Shown here in pieces: positions 19,103-26,339 of a stretch of DNA of 27,247 bases (positions are counted from its first letter, which is position 1; each line of letters starts with the position of its first letter). The position numbers and the translations under genes were made by a program. The stretch is taken from IMG/VR virus record IMGVR_UViG_3300017706_002750, positions 1 through 27,247 of that record. One strand, written 5' to 3'. The stretch comes from a virus. Below the pieces are notes generated by a model. That model saw only the letters and a list, made by a program, of their open reading frames with translations. It was not told the DNA's origin and made no database searches.

Positions 19103-19468
19103 TTATTTCCCCGATATTTGAGCAAACAAATTATCTGGATCAATTTGAGCTGCTTTTTCTTCTTCTTTTGCAATTAAATCGGCTAATTTAAGTAATTGAT
19201 CATTTGATTTATTCATTCTTTCAATATACTTGGCCATCATTGGCCCTAAGGTCACGTGGTCAGCTTTGTCACCTGTCATACATCCATATACGTCAGTAAA
19301 AAGCATGTACGCATTCATGCGATCTACGATGGCATTTTCATAGATCTCTCTCCAAAGATGTTTTTTCTTTTCTTCAAGATTTTCAATAGACTCTAGCAAA
19401 GCACCGAACTGCTCAGTTTTTCTAGAAACATCATCAAATGTCATTACTGGATCTTCTTTTTTTGTCAT
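19103..19468 (-). CDS. 121-aa helical protein of unknown function downstream of the late sigma gene
   Basis: The ATG at 19468 overlaps the TGA of the sigma gene by four bases (ATGA), indicating translational coupling; the stop is 3 bases before the gp5 start. The protein is strongly charged and mostly alpha-helical. A likely coiled coil lies near residues 20-45 ('FGALLESIENLEEKKKHLWR') and a second helix near 80-107 ('IERMNKSNDQLLKLADLIAK'). It contains one Cys (C63) and no transmembrane segment. The C-terminus, 'DPDNLFAQISGK', has a mixed hydrophobic/acidic character. Placement next to the sigma factor leaves open a late-transcription accessory role, and placement before gp5 leaves open a tail assembly role. 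Neither is shown by the sequence. Confidence 0.75.
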   Translation of the reverse strand: MTKKEDPVMTFDDVSRKTEQFGALLESIENLEEKKKHLWREIYENAIVDRMNAYMLFTDVYGCMTGDKADHVTLGPMMAKYIERMNKSNDQLLKLADLIAKEEEKAAQIDPDNLFAQISGK

Positions 19469-20202
19469 AATATATCAAACTCCTTCCCCGAACCATTCAA
19501 TTGCCTGTAGATACCTCTTATTGATGACATGCATACGGACAATTGTTTTGAATTTAAACCAGACATTTCTCTAACATACACAAAAATTGCTCTCTTATTC
19601 AAGAAATCAAGTTCATCTACTTTGTTAAATATCTCTATGATCGCATCTACACACTTAATTTCTCTTTCATTTCTAACTCTTTTTCTAATTTCATAAAAAA
19701 GCTTTCTAATTTCTTCTGTTTTTTCTTGTTTTTCCATTTGAGAAGAAGGGGCTTGAACATATTGGCCATTTTTATGAAATAAAGCATCTACATTTATTTC
19801 ATTATCTGGATCATCTATAGAGACGTGCCTGAATTTGTATTTGTTCTTTTTTCTAGAGTGTATAATGAGCCAATGCTTGGCTACTACATTAAAATAAGAG
19901 AATGCTCTATGGCCTTTTGATGCATCAAACTTATGAAGTGTCTCATACAAATTGATAACACAGTCTTGCTTGAGAGTATCCACGTTGTCATGCTGTTTGT
20001 GAAAACCATAAACGTATATAAGATTCTCAGAAAGTTTTTCAAGTGCTTCTCGAATGATATCTGTATACAATTTTTCTTTTTCTTTAGGGCAATCTGAACT
20101 GCAGAACTGCACTATCGCATCTTGGTGTTCTCTACGGAAATAACCCTTATTTTTTGCTTTGGATTTTCCTCTACGCCTTTTAACTATTTTCTTCTTCGCC
20201 AT
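19465..20202 (-). CDS. 55: Late transcription sigma factor, T4 gp55-like
   Basis: 245 aa, ATG at 20202 with TAGAGGAGACAACCG upstream; the first 23 bases overlap the membrane-protein gene. The N-terminus is very basic (MAKKKIVKRRRGKSKAKNK), perhaps aiding DNA binding. Residues about 45-120 resemble sigma region 2 as kept in gp55: 'TDIIREALEKLSENLIYVYG', then 'TLKQDCVINLYETLHKFDAS', then 'RAFSYFNVVAKHWLIIHSRK'. There is no clear region 4, as expected for gp55 (185 aa in T4). The last residues are EFDIL, a hydrophobic/acidic tail of the kind gp55 uses to touch the sliding clamp; that is inference. The known family role is to direct host RNA polymerase to late promoters with a TATAAATA-type box. 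Confidence 0.85.
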   Translation of the reverse strand: MAKKKIVKRRRGKSKAKNKGYFRREHQDAIVQFCSSDCPKEKEKLYTDIIREALEKLSENLIYVYGFHKQHDNVDTLKQDCVINLYETLHKFDASKGHRAFSYFNVVAKHWLIIHSRKKNKYKFRHVSIDDPDNEINVDALFHKNGQYVQAPSSQMEKQEKTEEIRKLFYEIRKRVRNEREIKCVDAIIEIFNKVDELDFLNKRAIFVYVREMSGLNSKQLSVCMSSIRGIYRQLNGSGKEFDIL

Positions 20203-20485
20203 CGGTTGTCTCCTCTAAACGGCCAATCTCGTTAGCTACGAATAAAATACTTCTCTGACACTCTTTTATGTCCGCCACTACTTGGCGAATTTGAGGAGAG
20301 TCAGAAAACAAAGGTATTTCTAATACCTTTGATATTGAATTGTATCTATCGTCTAACTTTTCTATAGATTCTTCTAAAGCATCTTCCATTCGGATCAGAG
20401 CTCGGCCAAATTTATAATTATAATACAATGAAACCACTAACATAACTGTAACTAGAAGAGAGTATATAGAGATAATATACATCAT
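20180..20485 (-). CDS. 101-aa membrane-anchored coiled-coil protein
   Basis: I place the start at ATG 20485, which overlaps the TGA of the upstream glycosyltransferase (ATGA) and lies eight bases after GGAGG in GGAGGAG (20492-20498). A TTG at 20500 would place the start before that ribosome site, and an adjacent ATG at 20482 is also possible. Residues about 3-28 (IISIYSLLVTVMLVVSLYY) form one transmembrane helix. A charged helical region follows ('RALIRMEDALEESIEKLDDR') and then a second helical stretch near 'ADIKECQRSILFVANEIGRL' with an acidic tail. The layout fits an N-in or N-out single-pass protein with a coiled-coil domain. I do not recognise the family. Spanin-like, membrane-recruiting and sigma-linked roles are all possible. 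Confidence 0.75.
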   Translation of the reverse strand: MMYIISIYSLLVTVMLVVSLYYNYKFGRALIRMEDALEESIEKLDDRYNSISKVLEIPLFSDSPQIRQVVADIKECQRSILFVANEIGRLEETTDGEEENS

Positions 20486-21621
20486 TTCCATCTCCTCCAA
20501 AACTTTGAATATTTTTCACTAATTTTATCAAAAGAATATTTATTTTGAACTGCAATCTGTAGGCTTTTTGTATCTATCTGATCACCCAATACAAAATCTT
20601 CGAGGGATTTTCTTGCATAATCAATATCAGGGTTTGCCCACTTGGCTCCTTTGACAAAAACACCATTGTCAATTTTCTTTGCCGGGATTGATTCTATTCT
20701 TCCTTTAATTTTCTTCCACTCACCAAGATTAAGAAACTCTGTATGCGCAGACCAATTTGTTGCACAGACAGGAAGGCCACATGCTGCTGCTTCAAGCAAA
20801 GGAAGACCAAATCCTTCGCCATGTGTAAGAGATATTAGTCCTTTTATTTTTGGATGCTTGTACAGAGATGCTACTTCTTTATCATTTAAGTATCCATGTA
20901 AAAAATATATTTTCGGAAAAGGACCTTTTCTCACTTGTCTTATTATCGAATTAACTCTAGACTTTGTGATATGTCTATCCACTGTTGAGTTGCCACCTGA
21001 ATTTGTTTTTATAACAAGTCCTACGTTAGCATTGTCTTTAAAAGTATCACAAAACAGGGATAAGGTCAACGCTGTATTCTTTCTATCCGTTTCATAATCT
21101 CCAGACAATTGTCCGAACACTAAATAATTTTCTTGAGTCTGGAAGTTTATAGAAAGTTCTACAGGGTCATCCAAACATGCATCTATAAAAGACTCTGGTA
21201 TAACTGTCACCCTTTTCGATTTAAGGCCAGAATTAACTAAACACCTTTTAGCAAACTCGCTTGGGACAATTACATGGTCCATTCTTTGACATGCTGTTAC
21301 CCAATCCGTATGACATGTGTCAGTTTCCACAACAGCAGACACACCATAATTTTTATCAGCAAGTGATGGATTCCATTCACTCGGTAGCATAATCTGGAAT
21401 GAAACATCTGGCTTTCCCTTGAGTGGTGAAGAAGCTTCCATAATTTTTTCAATCAAACCATGACACTCTTTACGATCAGTATACCATGGGGTATTGCCCC
21501 AGGGGGTAATCTCTGTCGTTATATGAAAATCTTGTTCAAAAGCCCATCTTGCTAATTGTCTAGCATGGACTCCATAGCCAGAAATTGACAAGAGAGGACC
21601 TTTAATGTGTACGTGCGTCAT
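20482..21621 (-). CDS. GT4-type glycosyltransferase (GT-B fold), 379 aa
   Basis: The ATG at 21621 shares one base with the TAA of the upstream glycosyltransferase (TAATG), with GGAGAC just upstream. The N-terminal domain has 'GYGVHARQLARWAFEQ' (residues 15-30), the usual 'G.g..a..L' loop-helix of GT4 enzymes. 'VIVPSEFAKRCLVNSG' (117-132) is the classic hinge-side motif. 'YLVFGQLSGDYETDRKN' (166-182) starts the C-terminal nucleotide-sugar domain. 'HGEGFGLPLLEAAACGLPV' (267-285) holds the E-x7-E pair, E269 and E277. All expected elements are present, so the enzyme looks active. Donor and acceptor sugars cannot be told from sequence. It is encoded in tandem with a second GT4 and coupled to the membrane protein/sigma pair. 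Confidence 0.92.
   Translation of the reverse strand: MTHVHIKGPLLSISGYGVHARQLARWAFEQDFHITTEITPWGNTPWYTDRKECHGLIEKIMEASSPLKGKPDVSFQIMLPSEWNPSLADKNYGVSAVVETDTCHTDWVTACQRMDHVIVPSEFAKRCLVNSGLKSKRVTVIPESFIDACLDDPVELSINFQTQENYLVFGQLSGDYETDRKNTALTLSLFCDTFKDNANVGLVIKTNSGGNSTVDRHITKSRVNSIIRQVRKGPFPKIYFLHGYLNDKEVASLYKHPKIKGLISLTHGEGFGLPLLEAAACGLPVCATNWSAHTEFLNLGEWKKIKGRIESIPAKKIDNGVFVKGAKWANPDIDYARKSLEDFVLGDQIDTKSLQIAVQNKYSFDKISEKYSKFWRRWK
20492..20498 (-). promoter_or_regulatory. Ribosome binding site that fixes the membrane-protein start
   Basis: GGAGGAG lies inside the last codons of the 379-aa glycosyltransferase, eight bases (from GGAGG) before the ATG at 20485. It argues against the upstream TTG at 20500, and indicates translation by reinitiation at the overlapping TGA. 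Confidence 0.6.
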
Positions 21622-22877
21622 TACATTGTCTCCATCTTATAGCGATTATACCGGGTTTTCCACGATTGGATAGTGTGATTAATCAATTCGTCCCACTGAT
21701 TGATTCTATTTTCATAATTAAATTCGTAATCTGCGTATTTCTGCACTTTGTCGCACAGTGTACTATACCCTTGAGGTAACTGCTTTATAAACCACATATC
21801 TAGAATAGCATCCGATATAGTCTCTGCAGATGTGTAGTCTTCGAGAATATAAGGAATCTGTTGATTTCCTACCATAGTTTGAAACTCAATTGGTAGGGCA
21901 ATACCATTCTGTGTATTATCTCTATAGTCTTGTACTTGTCGACTTTGACCGCCAGTTAGTGGAGCAATGATTGGAGTTCCAGTCATCATAGATTCTAAAG
22001 TTGATAACCCAAAGCCTTCACTGTGGGATATATTGATCGTGAAATCCGAAAGATTATAATATTCATTGAGTTGATCAAACCCTATTCTTTCTGTGCTGAA
22101 CACAACATTTTCTTCCAAACCATAATAATCTCTTAAAGCAAGTAGGTTAGGGCCTTCAGGATCAAATGGGTCTGTATGCATCAACAATACCCCTTGTCGG
22201 TGCCCTTTCTCCTTCTCTAGTTTGTCTAAGAAAAGAGACCAAGCCCAAAGAAGATCATTCGGTCTTTTCCTCCTTGCATTTCTATTAGACCAAAACCCTA
22301 CGAACCAATCACTCTTATTAGGAAGCCATTTCTTTTTACATTCTAGAATTTGATCGTCTGTCATTCTAAAATATACTTCCTTAGGGATTGTATGAGGCAC
22401 AAAATGTGTTTTATCCGGATAGTGTTCTACTATTTGATCATATGTGTGATGAGAATGGCAAGCTATCAAGTCTGTTGCTTCGTAATACATATCATTAAAT
22501 TTTGGGTATGGTTTATTGTCCCACACATGCCAGTATGAAATAGGGCAAACTTGATGAATTTCATCTTCCATGCTAAACAACCAATGAAAAAACCTCGGAT
22601 CTGTGAAGACCATCACCATGTCTGGTTGTTCTGTCGCCAAAGCCAATCTCAACATTTCAGGTGTGCCAAATCCGTCTATAGGCTTTATTATAAAGTCATC
22701 ATTAATTTTCGCTACATTGTAATCTTGGTGCTTCATTGCTGCACCAAATTGTCTAAAAGTATAATTTCCTGTCGATACTAATCCATTTATTAAAAATCTA
22801 GATTGTACACCAACACCTGAAGTGCTGAGTGCATGATCAGAAAGCATTAGTATTTTCTTTTTACCATTGGCCGCCAT
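21621..22877 (-). CDS. GT4-type glycosyltransferase (GT-B fold), 418 aa
   Basis: ATG at 22877, inside the last 17 bases of the nuclease gene, with CGGAG about nine bases upstream. The first ~16 residues include a Lys run and the opening strand 'KKILMLSDHALSTSGVGVQS', a typical GT4 N-terminus with the small-residue loop. 'WFVGFWSNRNARRKRPNDLL' (191-210) is the first strand of the C-terminal domain, with the Arg/Lys pair that usually meets phosphate. 'HSEGFGLSTLESMMTGTPII' (285-304) carries E287 and E295 (E-x7-E). It looks like an intact enzyme. It differs clearly from the 379-aa neighbour in length and N-terminal sequence, so it is not a recent duplicate. It probably acts in the same glycan pathway. 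Confidence 0.92.
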   Translation of the reverse strand: MAANGKKKILMLSDHALSTSGVGVQSRFLINGLVSTGNYTFRQFGAAMKHQDYNVAKINDDFIIKPIDGFGTPEMLRLALATEQPDMVMVFTDPRFFHWLFSMEDEIHQVCPISYWHVWDNKPYPKFNDMYYEATDLIACHSHHTYDQIVEHYPDKTHFVPHTIPKEVYFRMTDDQILECKKKWLPNKSDWFVGFWSNRNARRKRPNDLLWAWSLFLDKLEKEKGHRQGVLLMHTDPFDPEGPNLLALRDYYGLEENVVFSTERIGFDQLNEYYNLSDFTINISHSEGFGLSTLESMMTGTPIIAPLTGGQSRQVQDYRDNTQNGIALPIEFQTMVGNQQIPYILEDYTSAETISDAILDMWFIKQLPQGYSTLCDKVQKYADYEFNYENRINQWDELINHTIQSWKTRYNRYKMETM

Positions 22878-23703
22878 TACAGTGCTCCGAGTTTGCGAAA
22901 GGACAGAATCGACATGAAGTGTAATTCTTCATTGCAAAGCCTTTCTTTACGTTTTTAATCATTGAATCTACCATTTTATCAGCTCTTTCTACAAACTTAG
23001 GGCCGACGGACACTGTGAAGATATCCAAGCATTTTTCTTTCTTAGCTCCACGCTTAAGAAATACGTAAGCACACCTGATATCTTTTAGTTCCACACCTAG
23101 TTTTCTAGAAATATACCGCTTGTATAGGCCTACTTGCGATGTTTTTAAAAAATCTTTTCTTTGTTTTCCAAACCAACCAGCTTTTCCAGTAGTCTTCCAG
23201 TCTATAACCCAGAGAAGGTCTTTTCCTTTCTTGTCTTTACACCTAAGAAGACAATCGACAAATCCTTTGAAAGACACATCATCGTGGCCTTCGATAGACT
23301 CATACAGTTTATGTTCTGCATCTACTAATTCCCACTCAGGAAATTGATTATCTAGCCATTCAGGAAAAGATTCTAAAACATCAGTTGCATATGATTGCCA
23401 TTCTTCTACTGGAAGATCTTTGTACCACTTATTTGGTTTCATCTTTTCGAGGTATGCTTCACCCCTATAATCGTTTTCTACCCATTTTTGTACTATTTCT
23501 GCATGGCAAGTCGGTATATCCATCGTCTTTGTCTTAAGATAGTTCTCAATCGCATTGTGTACGGCTGTCCCGTAGTCTGCATAAGGGTTTGCCTCATACG
23601 AATCTAATTTGTCTACGTATGCTAGTTTGTGCCTATATGAGCATTCTTTCCAGACTTTGACTTCTGAAAAGCTTACATGTGGTTTTCCTGTTGGAAATAA
23701 CAT
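22861..23703 (-). CDS. PD-(D/E)XK nuclease with Fe-S cluster motif, Cas4/RecB-like
   Basis: 280 aa, ATG at 23703 with CGGGAG upstream. The protein shows the full Cas4/AddB-type plan. C21 (KECSYRHKL) and C264, C267, C275 (CRFCPFANSEHC) would bind a 4Fe-4S cluster. H49 (GTAVHN) provides motif I. D150 (FKGFVDC) and D168-x-K170 (VIDWKTT) are the metal-binding catalytic set. Q190 and Y194 (SQVGLYKRY) form the QhXXY motif. All expected residues are in place, so the enzyme is probably active. Family members are 5'-3' or structure-specific DNA exonucleases in recombination and, for Cas4, CRISPR adaptation. No Cas gene or array is near, so a phage recombination/processing role is more likely. It leads the coupled run that includes two glycosyltransferases. 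Confidence 0.92.
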   Translation of the reverse strand: MLFPTGKPHVSFSEVKVWKECSYRHKLAYVDKLDSYEANPYADYGTAVHNAIENYLKTKTMDIPTCHAEIVQKWVENDYRGEAYLEKMKPNKWYKDLPVEEWQSYATDVLESFPEWLDNQFPEWELVDAEHKLYESIEGHDDVSFKGFVDCLLRCKDKKGKDLLWVIDWKTTGKAGWFGKQRKDFLKTSQVGLYKRYISRKLGVELKDIRCAYVFLKRGAKKEKCLDIFTVSVGPKFVERADKMVDSMIKNVKKGFAMKNYTSCRFCPFANSEHCNGGQW

Positions 23704-23716
23704 AATTCTCCCGTGC

Positions 23717-23730
23717 TATGATTAATCATA
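23717..23730. repeat. Perfect 14-bp palindrome overlapping the promoter -10
   Basis: TATGATTAATCATA reads the same on both strands. It includes the candidate -10 hexamer and the expected transcription start. A site of this size and place could be an operator for a dimeric repressor; it is too AT-rich and loopless to be a good terminator. Confidence 0.5.
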
Positions 23731-23753
23731 ACGAAAAATATGCCATTGTACAA
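23725..23753 (-). promoter_or_regulatory. Candidate sigma70-type promoter for the nuclease-glycosyltransferase-sigma run
   Basis: On the minus strand TTGTAC (23753-23748) and TATGAT (23730-23725) are separated by exactly 17 bases. It lies in the 51-base gap upstream of the nuclease gene. Start of transcription would be near 23718, about 15 bases before the ATG, with CGGGAG inside the leader. Both hexamers match the bacterial consensus at four or more positions. Not tested for activity. Confidence 0.5.
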
Positions 23754-23754
23754 A

Positions 23755-23919
23755 TTAATGCTTTTCTAATTCGGTTAGACTAGTGTAGTCTTTGATATAC
23801 TCTAAAAGCGCCTCTTTATACTTTGCCTTGTATCCTTCTTGGATCCAGCCATCATTTCGAAAACTTTTCGATTCTGATAGTAAAAAGATTAAATTTAGCT
23901 TTGCAACTACTCTTATCAT
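23755..23919 (-). CDS. 54-aa small protein of unknown function
   Basis: ATG at 23919 overlaps the TGA of the 610-aa glycosyltransferase by four bases (ATGA), which is why I prefer it to the longer frame starting at 23970. The ribosome site is weak (AAGGGTCC). The product is MIRVVAKLNLIFLLSESKSF followed by a mixed charged segment with two Tyr-Lys repeats and ending ELEKH. It has a short hydrophobic stretch (residues 8-14), too short for a membrane helix. I see no known domain. Coupling to the upstream gene and the promoter region directly after it are the main evidence that it is real. Confidence 0.55.
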   Translation of the reverse strand: MIRVVAKLNLIFLLSESKSFRNDGWIQEGYKAKYKEALLEYIKDYTSLTELEKH

Positions 23920-25748
23920 GTGAGAGGACCCTTTCTTCGTAATTCGATTGAAGGAACTTCTACAGACCAATCAACCTTGTTATGGAATATATGACCTCCT
24001 TTCTCCTCTTCGAGTCGTTGGGCTAACACTTTTATATCGTCTTCTGTCACATCGGCCCATGGTTTGTCGAAGCATACATTATTTTCAGCTGTATCTTCTG
24101 TGTCCAAGTCGTACATGGATTTCCAGAACTTGCCCCAATGTGATTTATAAGAAGTGATCTTTCGTTCTATGTCAAACCAAGAATAATGATAGACAGTAGG
24201 AAGAGATTCTACACATACATCAAACCAATTTTGGTACTGTGCAGCTGCTGCTTTATCTCCTTGCAAGGCTTTAATTCTTGTGTCATGTGCATTCTGATCA
24301 TAGAAAGTCGCATGAGGAATCCTAGTATAAGATTCAGCCGTGACATAATCACACGAGTCGGTTCCTTTGCCAGCATACACATTTCCTTCGTCGTCTTTCA
24401 TCCGGAGCTCTGCAGGGATTCCATGAATGATTTCCTGTTTATTGCGACTTAGTCTCCATTTCCATGGATTAACATCCATTCTCACTTTTCCAGTAGATCC
24501 CCAATATTCTACTACCGGTAATGACAATATGTCAAAAGCTTTTGGAGCTGTTTGCAAAAGACTTTGTATCTTTTCCCTTTCATCTGCATGCAGAATTTCA
24601 TCTACATCCATCTGCCAGCACCAATCAGAAGTCACATAACCTCTTGCATAAGTCTTTAGATCTCCATCAGAATGAATCGCCCATCTAGGATGATCAAAAT
24701 CAATTTTTTTCTGGAAAGCTTTGATACCTTCAATTTCTTGAAGTTTTTCCCACGTGCCATCGGTTGATCCAGCGTCGACTACTATCACCTCGTCAAAGTT
24801 AGCCAACAGAGATTCTATACATTTTTCGAACGGATAGCCTTGAGATACGCAATTATACGTTGTAGTATAAGCCCCTACTGTCGAAGTGATATCCATGCTA
24901 CGTTTTGTTTCGTTCCAGAACCGATTGGGAAGATCTTTAAGATGTTCGAGCATTGAATCTGGCGTACCATGTGAGAACCATGCTTCATTCGCCATCTGTA
25001 CGTTGTTATTGATGTGTAATTCACACCCTAGAACTTTGGCTTCTATAACCACTCGAGGACAAGTATCTCCTCCTCTAGGAAGAAAGCAAAAAGAACTTGC
25101 ATTAGCAACCTTATTCAGAAGGGCCACCCGAGACAATCCAGAAAATTTTTCATATTCCAAACCAGAGTCATCACAAAACTTGGCTGCATCTTCTGTTCCT
25201 TTTATCCAAGACTCTGAATCTTGTATTAAAGTTGGTCCATTGCCATTTTCTGTTTTGAGAAAATCTAGCATCTGAATGTCTTCTTTTGAGAAAACAGATC
25301 CAAGTACTCTTCCTTTGCCTTCCAAGAATGGAAATCTATCCACGTATCTATTTTCTTGATCAGATGACATCCAAAAGACTCTATTAGCTCCATAATAAAA
25401 TGCTGAAACTAATTTGCCAAGCTGGTCTGTATGACAAGTGCACTCTTCTTTGGTTTCGTGTACATGTTTTTCTATAGATCTATATTTGCAAAACTTGTAA
25501 TCATATTCAAGCACAGAATATTTTATATTAGCTACAATAGAAGGTATCAACTGTGTATTTAAAGAAGCAAAATTACCAAATATCCAATAACAGTCGATAT
25601 ATTTGTTCAGAACTTGTATTGTCACATCTTTTGAATTTATTTTTATAAATTCAAAAGGACATGATTCAATCAATGCCTCTGTTGTTAATTCAGCACCGCC
25701 AACATACTGGTCTGCAAATAAATCGGCTACAAAAACTATCTTCGTCAT
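23916..25748 (-). CDS. Two-domain glycosyltransferase: GT4-like N-terminus fused to GT2 C-terminus
   Basis: 610 aa, ATG at 25748 with GGAG six bases away. Residues 1-280 are GT-B/GT4-like: 'KIVFVADLFADQYVGGAELT' at the start and 'FLPRGGDTCPRVVIEAKVLG' (222-241) at the donor site, where the first Glu of E-x7-E is an Asp (D228...E236). Residues about 288-560 are GT-A/GT2-like: 'VGAYTTTYNC' strand, 'VIVVDAGSTDGTWEKL' (321-336), and the DxD-type metal site 'WQMDVDEILHADE' (378-390; D381-D383). 'WRLSRNKQEIIHGIPAE' then gives an Arg-rich acceptor-side segment. Such fusions can add two sugars in one step. The GT2 half looks fully equipped; the GT4 half may have reduced or altered activity. Substrates are unknown. 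Confidence 0.88.
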   Translation of the reverse strand: MTKIVFVADLFADQYVGGAELTTEALIESCPFEFIKINSKDVTIQVLNKYIDCYWIFGNFASLNTQLIPSIVANIKYSVLEYDYKFCKYRSIEKHVHETKEECTCHTDQLGKLVSAFYYGANRVFWMSSDQENRYVDRFPFLEGKGRVLGSVFSKEDIQMLDFLKTENGNGPTLIQDSESWIKGTEDAAKFCDDSGLEYEKFSGLSRVALLNKVANASSFCFLPRGGDTCPRVVIEAKVLGCELHINNNVQMANEAWFSHGTPDSMLEHLKDLPNRFWNETKRSMDITSTVGAYTTTYNCVSQGYPFEKCIESLLANFDEVIVVDAGSTDGTWEKLQEIEGIKAFQKKIDFDHPRWAIHSDGDLKTYARGYVTSDWCWQMDVDEILHADEREKIQSLLQTAPKAFDILSLPVVEYWGSTGKVRMDVNPWKWRLSRNKQEIIHGIPAELRMKDDEGNVYAGKGTDSCDYVTAESYTRIPHATFYDQNAHDTRIKALQGDKAAAAQYQNWFDVCVESLPTVYHYSWFDIERKITSYKSHWGKFWKSMYDLDTEDTAENNVCFDKPWADVTEDDIKVLAQRLEEEKGGHIFHNKVDWSVEVPSIELRRKGPLT

Positions 25749-25793: not shown

Positions 25794-26315
25794 TTAAAGC
25801 GTGAGAATAATAACTTGCCAATTGGCTGCAGATGTCTTTAGAAACAGAGCTCTTTTGCCTATATCGATGGTGATTTGACTAACTGTCGAACCACTAGGAT
25901 CTTTAAAATCGACATCCGCTATTACATTCTTCGTGATAACAAGCTCATCTCCGGAGCCATTTATAATCTCTACTCTTGCTCCTAGTCCATACTCCGCAAT
26001 TCCTTTTATCTTTATTGCATGATCTGCTGAGCTGTCATTGTCTGCGTCTTGATCTGCAGTGACATAATATGTGACATTTGTGTAATTAGTACTAGCAGGA
26101 ATCACGACATCTCCACTCAGTGCAGATAAAACTTCATTTGCAGGATAATAAGGTGCACTATCGACATTCGACCAGCTAGAGGTGGCCGTGTTGTATACTT
26201 GCAGTGCACCCGCTGTCAATGCAATATCACCTGTTGCAGCAGACGTGATTGCTGCATCTCTTGCAGTGGCATCTGCATAGTTTTTAAGTTTTATCGAATC
26301 TGTTTTGAAAGCCAT
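25794..26315 (-). CDS. 173-aa probable virion structural protein
   Basis: I start at ATG 26315 (MAFKTDSIKLKNYADATARD). It has GGAG at 26324-26327, whereas the seven-codon-longer frame has none. The N-terminal half is Ala/Thr/Ser-rich, with 'GDIALTAGALQVYNTATSSW', a phrase typical of small beta-structured fibre-tip or virion proteins that begin with 'gd.a...g.l.vy....w'. The middle is rich in Asp/Asn and beta strands ('NYTNVTYYVTADQDADND'). The C-terminus ends 'RALFLKTSAANWQVIILTL'. No transmembrane segment is seen. A T4-late-type promoter box is placed about 25 bases before this start. A decoration, fibre or neck-region protein is plausible. The exact role is inferred only from composition and neighbours. 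Confidence 0.7.
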   Translation of the reverse strand: MAFKTDSIKLKNYADATARDAAITSAATGDIALTAGALQVYNTATSSWSNVDSAPYYPANEVLSALSGDVVIPASTNYTNVTYYVTADQDADNDSSADHAIKIKGIAEYGLGARVEIINGSGDELVITKNVIADVDFKDPSGSTVSQITIDIGKRALFLKTSAANWQVIILTL

Positions 26316-26339
26316 TTTTCTTACTCCAAATGTCAATTT

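Follow-up and report, generated by a model that had tools for sequence, protein, structure and literature searches.

A glycosyltransferase pair joined to the late sigma factor gene of large aquatic phages, a candidate core for glycan assembly

Why would a large phage keep three intact glycosyltransferases (GTs) ahead of the genes for its late sigma factor and baseplate? The question is posed by an IMG/VR fragment of 27,247 bases from an uncultured virus (record IMGVR_UViG_3300017706_002750; its whole length is referred to here as the window), in which a two-domain enzyme (the fusion GT) and two GT4-type enzymes (GT4a and GT4b) are encoded at this position. An earlier note on the window had regarded them as a module of GTs, a GT4-GT2 fusion and two GT4 proteins, that builds a glycan used in late infection. 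Our analysis leads us to view them as the cytoplasmic glycan-assembly core of large gp23-type myophages, whose acceptor would most likely be a virion protein, for instance a tail fibre or a different structure at the surface; we assign this reading a probability of about one half.

The minus-strand gene series of the window is uninterrupted, with every gap being short or negative. It leads from the end of a PhoH gene via three small open reading frames (ORFs) and the gene for the 610-amino acid (aa) fusion GT to a 54-aa ORF, a PD-(D/E)XK nuclease gene, the GT4a and GT4b genes and the gene for a small membrane protein, and from there to a gp55-like sigma factor gene, the gene for a 121-aa protein, and finally the baseplate genes, gp25 among them. 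The members of the block that matter for our argument are these:

23916..25748, minus strand: GT-B/GT2 two-domain glycosyltransferase (fusion GT, 610 aa), from Pfam, alignment, AlphaFold2 (AF2) and Foldseek
23755..23919, minus strand: 54-aa ORF with no assigned function, from the sequence; ATGA overlap with the fusion GT stop
22861..23703, minus strand: PD-(D/E)XK nuclease of the Cas4/RecB-like exonuclease family (PF12705, 1.1e-26; phrog_69 exonuclease, 1.1e-25)
21621..22877, minus strand: GT4a, GT4-type glycosyltransferase, 418 aa (PF00534, 1.2e-10; phrog_2170, 3e-21)
20482..21621, minus strand: GT4b, GT4-type glycosyltransferase, 379 aa (PF00534, 9.6e-10; phrog_2170, 4.8e-22)
20180..20485, minus strand: small membrane protein, one N-terminal span plus helical tail; ATGA overlap with GT4b
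19465..20202, minus strand: gp55-like late sigma factor, 245 aa (phrog_234, 5.6e-4; family alignment)

GT4a and GT4b overlap by 1 nucleotide (nt), GT4b and the membrane-protein gene by 4 nt (ATGA), and the membrane-protein gene and the sigma gene by 23 nt; the latter two overlaps had been correctly described in the earlier note. As the 4-nt overlap recurs in many relatives, the true start of the membrane-protein gene is probably at 20485. The GT set is physically coupled to the late-sigma/baseplate block, and translational coupling is probable as well. It is, however, not the module of GTs only that had been proposed, since the nuclease gene and the 54-aa ORF are placed between the fusion GT and GT4a, and the loci of relatives show that the nuclease belongs to the conserved block. 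The single-span membrane protein (20180-20485) is always found between GT4b and the sigma factor and has no family match. For the sigma factor itself the match to the phrog_234 late sigma factor profile is weak and that to Sigma70_r2 (0.007) falls below the cut-off, while the family is well conserved in its alignment. The T4-type late promoter motif TATAAATA, which is that of T4 and may not be that of this sigma factor, occurs 0 times in the window against 2.4 occurrences expected by chance, and promoter and terminator scans of the window stayed at chance level.

How firmly is this arrangement maintained? Relatives of GT4a were found in at least 595 IMG/VR stretches and those of the fusion GT in 200. 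The loci surveyed were the best-scoring 80 per scan, some of them near-copies, so that our counts hold for the lineage to which the sigma factor and GT4a of the window belong, not for phages at large. GT4b follows GT4a in 115 of the 117 cases with a downstream gene, a recognised nuclease directly precedes GT4a in 86 loci, and 103 of the 108 GT4b genes with a next gene are followed by the membrane protein and/or the sigma factor. The reverse search, starting from the sigma gene, found GT4b in all 62 loci with at least 2.2 kb of upstream sequence and GT4a in all 54 with more than 3.6 kb. The order nuclease-GT4a-GT4b-membrane protein-sigma factor is nearly invariant in the surveyed IMG/VR loci. 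All 13 long contigs (167-306 kb) carry GT4b and 12 the fusion GT; a gp23-type capsid protein is encoded by each of the ten longest, and DNA Pol III alpha is present in the long relatives examined. In GTDB, the matches fall into metagenome bins from a mixture of phyla (Methylococcaceae, Halobacteriovorax, Pelagibacter, Flavobacteriales and others) that probably carry binned phage contigs, and we consequently claim no host. One such contig, NHDW01000006.1 (305838 bases; L125), had been placed in the bacterial bin Methylococcaceae TMED69 but represents a large phage of the lineage, with gp23, the sigma block and a hydroxymethylase. Two large relatives possess two adjacent gp23-type major capsid genes each (G011:C1:139350-142938 and G017:C1:176509-180120).

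The proteins themselves have the hallmarks of working enzymes. The Pfam family Glycos_transf_1 matches GT4a and GT4b with 41.6 and 38.7 bits against a curated cut-off of 26.4, which bears out their GT4 label. Our alignments of catalytic residues comprised 15-19 homologues with identities down to 25-30%; the conservation seen in them, like the substitution rates given below, is well outside the reach of chance. In GT4a, R199/R203/K204 and E287 are invariant and E295 is nearly so (E-x7-E; 18 homologues); in GT4b, R180/K181/K205 with the R-K-N and K motif, and E269/E277 (E-x7-E), are invariant (19 homologues). R203/K204 of GT4a and R180/K181/K205 of GT4b are the basic residues of the type that binds phosphate. 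The best PDB profile match of GT4a is B736L from a chlorovirus (3oy2; 4.7e-16), and the predicted model of GT4b (AF2 predicted local distance difference test score, pLDDT, 91.4; predicted template modelling score, pTM, 0.90) has the same protein, B736L of chlorovirus NY2A, as its nearest structure (Foldseek; template modelling score, TM, 0.64; 1.6e-14). A GT-B fold is thereby indicated for GT4b through its model and for GT4a through the PDB profile match only. When compared by hhalign (98.5% over 346 columns), GT4a and GT4b present themselves as distant full-length paralogues.

In the fusion GT, a GT-B fold (residues ~1-285) is joined to a GT2 domain (~290-430). The GT2 assignment of the C-terminal half is upheld by PF00535 (2.3e-9; 37.8 bits against a cut-off of 23.3), and D325, D330 and the DxDE motif (D381, D383, E384) are invariant across 15 fusion GTs. 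In contrast, the GT4 label that the earlier note had given to the N-terminal half lacks support from sequence. A Pfam search found no GT1/GT4 match there, and an hhalign comparison of this half with the GT4a profile found no homology (0.2%). Its GT-B fold is that of the AF2 model (mean pLDDT 89.5), in which SenB (8rz3; 4.6e-6) and Gtf3 (3rhz; 1.4e-5) are the nearest structures found by Foldseek; a D-x7-E motif (D228...E236), invariant across 15 homologues, replaces E-x7-E. Nearest to the C-terminal half are the peptide S-glycosyltransferases SunS/ThuS, followed by TarS, TarP and RmlT, and a profile search also brought up the flagellin GT GmaR. Among cultured phages no relative of the fusion GT was found at 1e-5. 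One homologue (G010:C1:139569-141431) contains a single in-frame TGA, which may point to decay of this copy or to a mistake in the assembly.

Relative to the closest relative (L002), the ratio of nonsynonymous to synonymous substitution rates (dN/dS) is 0.07-0.10 for the three GTs, which are intact and, judged by these values, under purifying selection. That they might be host-derived remnants with dead active sites, an outcome that the earlier note had named as fatal to its proposal, is ruled out for GT4a, GT4b and the GT2 domain by their conserved catalytic residues and low dN/dS; all three ORFs are of full length, as had been stated.

The set of the window is best understood against the loci of its relatives. 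In most of them, the fusion GT and the nuclease are kept apart by an island that can reach about 24 kb, and the distance from the fusion GT to GT4a spans 3.6-24.6 kb in the fifteen contigs in which both were seen. Encoded in the island are GT2, GT4, GT9 and GT11 enzymes, epimerases, DegT aminotransferases, FkbM and other methyltransferases, sulfotransferases, radical SAM proteins, and sugar-nucleotide genes. That of a 273-kb contig includes a GDP-mannose 4,6-dehydratase (436 bits), epimerases, a member of the GT11 fucosyltransferase family, a UDP-glucose dehydrogenase, and a sulfotransferase, among others. Homologues of the median island ORF occur in 3.5% of the other loci; the corresponding figure for the genes that come after the sigma gene is 87%. 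The island sits directly after one or two fibre-like proteins of about 500-2000 aa, encoded upstream of the fusion GT, that contain about 20% Ser+Thr and 12% Gly but few Lys/Arg residues. The corresponding places in the window are occupied as follows:

23704..23915, minus strand: empty island site, 212 nt between the fusion GT and the nuclease
25794..26336, minus strand: 180-aa (or shorter) protein, in place of the one or two large S/T/G-rich fibre-like proteins of relatives

About 210 nt separate the fusion GT from the nuclease in the window and in L002, L003 and L005, which form a fully supported group inside the island-bearing lineages in a quick GT4a tree; L084 is a second island-less case. 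Since the two are separate on this tree, the island was probably lost at least twice. In L108, even the fusion GT is gone, while the nuclease, GT4a and GT4b are kept, and the GT4 pair is therefore the irreducible core. Compared in this way, the GT set of the window is not complete in itself but what remains of a far larger glycan island. The three GTs of the window clade were retained under purifying selection after the loss of the island; enzymes for the supply of their own nucleotide sugars were seen in relatives but not in the window.

Could such a locus also provide for the transport of its glycan to the cell surface? By hydropathy, two or more membrane spans are predicted for just one of the 938 island ORFs, which has two; the same script counted 6 and 9 spans in the O-antigen polymerase and flippase of E. 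coli. Wzx/Wzy-type flippases and polymerases were absent from the 938 island ORFs by this span count, and the initiating phosphoglycosyltransferase family PF02397 scored above its cut-off in 0 of 16 records. Because of these two observations, export of a glycan polymer to the cell surface by phage genes is unlikely.

These data lend themselves to a biosynthetic scheme in which the fusion GT, GT4a and GT4b, with their four predicted catalytic domains, would draw on nucleotide sugars of the host to assemble a short glycan in the phage of the window, whereas in its relatives the variable island would add phage-made sugars (e.g., via GDP-fucose and UDP-glucuronate routes) as well as methyl and sulfate groups. 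A virion protein would be glycosylated in the cytoplasm before or during assembly, and the block would for this reason be locked to the late sigma factor and baseplate genes. Virion proteins are our preferred candidates, since the block is bound to these late genes, follows fibre genes, lacks export genes, and resembles the chlorovirus pattern of conserved core and variable outer GTs with a GDP-fucose supply; the acceptor itself we infer by analogy. The nearest solved relatives, among them the chlorovirus GT (3oy2) and the peptide and protein GTs SunS and GmaR, fit this view. A glycan made in late infection, during virion assembly, is likewise the likeliest reading, in line with the earlier note, since the GTs are intact and selected and their coupling to the late-sigma/baseplate block is conserved throughout the lineage. 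For the downstream LamG/DNRLRE proteins, which had been put forward as acceptors, we obtained no direct support; in relatives, the proteins that border the locus are instead S/T-rich fibre-like ones, encoded immediately upstream of the fusion GT.

Several considerations count against a virion-protein acceptor. As the structural neighbours of GT4b also include the lipid and lipopolysaccharide (LPS) enzymes PimA and WaaG, and those of the fusion GT the teichoic-acid GTs TarS, TarP and RmlT, the fold leaves the acceptor unfixed. Membrane spans were judged by hydropathy only, and the window is a 27-kb fragment, so that nucleotide-sugar or DNA-modification genes of this phage may lie outside its borders. 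Moreover, every member of the lineage is known from its genes alone as far as acceptor and glycan are concerned. A more specific version, offered here tentatively, would be that of an O-antigen-like locus devoid of export genes, in which the operon of the invariant GT pair and the late sigma factor makes the core glycan of a virion protein and the hypervariable island supplies every phage with outer sugars of its own, thereby generating virion glycotypes.

Common though phage-encoded GTs are, they have mostly been described singly, host LPS or DNA being the guessed target. In the present case, the conservation of a GT pair equals that of the adjoining late sigma factor across hundreds of large aquatic phages, and the pair flanks a hypervariable island of sugar genes placed between fibre and baseplate genes. 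If the product resides on the virion, these phages would wear strain-specific sugar coats, on which adsorption, the stability of the particle and its recognition by hosts or grazers could depend, and the core GTs could serve as a handle for glycan engineering.

Among the alternatives, a remodelling of the host surface, be it LPS or another envelope glycan, that would block superinfection or the adsorption of progeny to debris, fares best, even if we consider it unlikely. It had been put forward in the earlier note as well, and it retains some plausibility because GTs of the LPS core need no flippase for their work in the cytoplasm; some island families (GT9, and GT4 with WaaG/PimA-like folds) have LPS core or lipids as substrates on the cytoplasmic face, where they can do without a flippase of their own. 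The authors of a pelagimyophage survey argue for a host-surface role of GTs in the host-recognition region and favour modification of the host O-chain (PMC7029224). However, the O-antigen or capsule export machinery is missing, given that, by hydropathy and PF02397, the 938 island ORFs contain neither flippase nor polymerase nor initiating transferase, and the coupling is to the late sigma factor and baseplate genes rather than to early genes. Furthermore, a core pair that stays invariant across different predicted hosts fits variable host LPS poorly.

Less probable still is the T-even type of solution, in which the GTs would glycosylate 5-hydroxymethylcytosine (5hmC) in phage DNA, although DNA-directed GTs come in several fold types and the modified base may well be present in this lineage. 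Nine of the 13 long contigs encode a thymidylate synthase (TS)-type protein, a putative dCMP hydroxymethylase; all nine have Asp at the position of TS Asn177 (dUMP-binding), a feature of T4 gp42, with which one of them shares 52% identity. The 27-kb window itself shows no such gene. On these grounds, 5hmC is likely in many members. Yet, in the 273-kb contig, the hydroxymethylase gene is located about 117 kb from the GT block, beside DNA Pol III alpha, and hydroxymethylase genes have sugar genes of their own as neighbours (UDP-galactopyranose mutase with a PF13524 GT, myo-inositol-phosphate synthase, epimerase). The four long contigs that lack the hydroxymethylase have other genes in its place and keep GT4a, GT4b and the fusion GT. 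The separate location of the hydroxymethylase and the persistence of GT4a and GT4b in its absence argue that the predicted GT4 pair does not serve 5hmC. Similarly, PF00303 gave no match in the complete genomes of Mel-JY01 and RM378, and the TS-type enzyme of immuto has Asn, i.e., is a normal thymidylate synthase, yet the GT4 pair is found in all three phages. A search for TET/JBP (PF20515) found no match, a result that carries little weight as the control genomes gave none either.

Two gene arrangements around the hydroxymethylase deserve mention in their own right. In L224:9492-12719 (G013) and L230:9386-about 12700 (G020), a predicted dCMP hydroxymethylase is directly followed by a UDP-galactopyranose mutase; a PF13524 glycosyltransferase comes next in L224, and L230 has a gene of the same family. 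Galactofuranosyl-5hmC DNA is possible in these two phages, as far as gene content can tell. In L223:9237-17784 (G011), and in the same order in L227 (G017), the hydroxymethylase is followed by a myo-inositol-1-phosphate synthase, an FkbM methyltransferase, a 484-aa protein with a weak match to the 5-hydroxymethyldeoxyuridine kinase helical domain, and a C5 cytosine methylase, a predicted pathway of base hypermodification with an unassigned product.

Similarly improbable is another cytoplasmic target, such as a small molecule, a host protein, a polymerase or RNA, with the GTs acting as inhibitors or in counter-defence. GT4b also resembles the small-molecule GTs MshA and BshA and trehalose synthases, and host takeover would fit a location beside a nuclease and a sigma factor, but a variable glycan island with fucosyl-, sulfo- and methyltransferases beside fibre genes would be left unexplained. 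Finally, that the GTs are host-derived passive hitchhikers or remnants, kept by linkage and with no function in infection, is highly improbable: GT genes are common phage cargo and the window clade has lost its island, but the dN/dS values, the invariant catalytic residues, and the retention of the block throughout the lineage and in three cultured phages speak against it.

How does this predicted core compare with systems already known? Like the alpha and beta DNA glucosyltransferases of T4, the enzymes are GTs of a gp23-type myophage; those of T4, however, are of other families and act on 5hmC, whereas here the hydroxymethylase is separate or absent. Glycosyltransferases of mycobacteriophages reportedly decorate capsid and tail-tube proteins. 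These are siphophages of Actinobacteria with one or two GTs, and no large island is known from them. Flavobacterium phage immuto, Microcystis phage Mel-JY01 and Rhodothermus phage RM378 carry GT4a and GT4b side by side, in immuto and Mel-JY01 with a PD-(D/E)XK nuclease upstream of the pair and sugar or GT genes after it. In these three phages, however, identity is 25-34%, the pair is not beside the sigma gene, and no fusion GT was found. The RM378 protein gp014 (L038:10616-11893), annotated as hypothetical, is a GT4b homologue (hhalign, 98.5%); the GT4a homologue of Mel-JY01 is split into two adjacent ORFs (190 and 302 aa; L037:13442-14933), which may reflect a broken gene, a frameshift or a sequencing error.

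Moraphages are large aquatic phages whose core genome includes four GT groups and a sigma factor; they encode DNA polymerase B (PMC12619734). As PolB (PF00136) is lacking in ten long relatives of the window, identity of the two lineages is doubtful. The pelagimyophages and cyanomyophages are T4-type marine myophages that also have sugar and GT genes (LPS-type in cyanomyophages) in a hypervariable region next to tail-fibre genes; the main GT family of pelagimyophages is GT8, however, and an invariant GT4a-GT4b-sigma block was not described (PMC7029224). In the phage collection searched, neither group gave a sequence match to the GTs of the window. Within the limits of our literature search, we found no earlier description of a GT pair coupled to the late sigma factor with an adjoining hypervariable island.

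The closest parallel is the autonomous glycosylation of the major capsid protein by chloroviruses (PBCV-1, NY2A). Acceptor and setting differ, as these are eukaryotic algal viruses in which the capsid N-glycan acceptor is proven, whereas here it is deduced from genes; sequence identity is only about 15%, and the chlorovirus GTs are scattered rather than joined in one operon with a sigma factor. Nevertheless, chloroviruses likewise combine virus-encoded GTs, including multidomain ones, into a conserved core and a variable outer set, and they encode their own GDP-fucose route (GDP-mannose 4,6-dehydratase plus epimerase), as does the island of relatives; their B736L (3oy2) stands out twice, as the solved structure closest to GT4b and as the top match of GT4a in the PDB profile search. 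Core GTs, a variable outer set and, in the relatives, dedicated nucleotide-sugar enzymes are all found in the present lineage, whose predicted GTs belong to a known kind, that of virus-encoded glycan synthesis.

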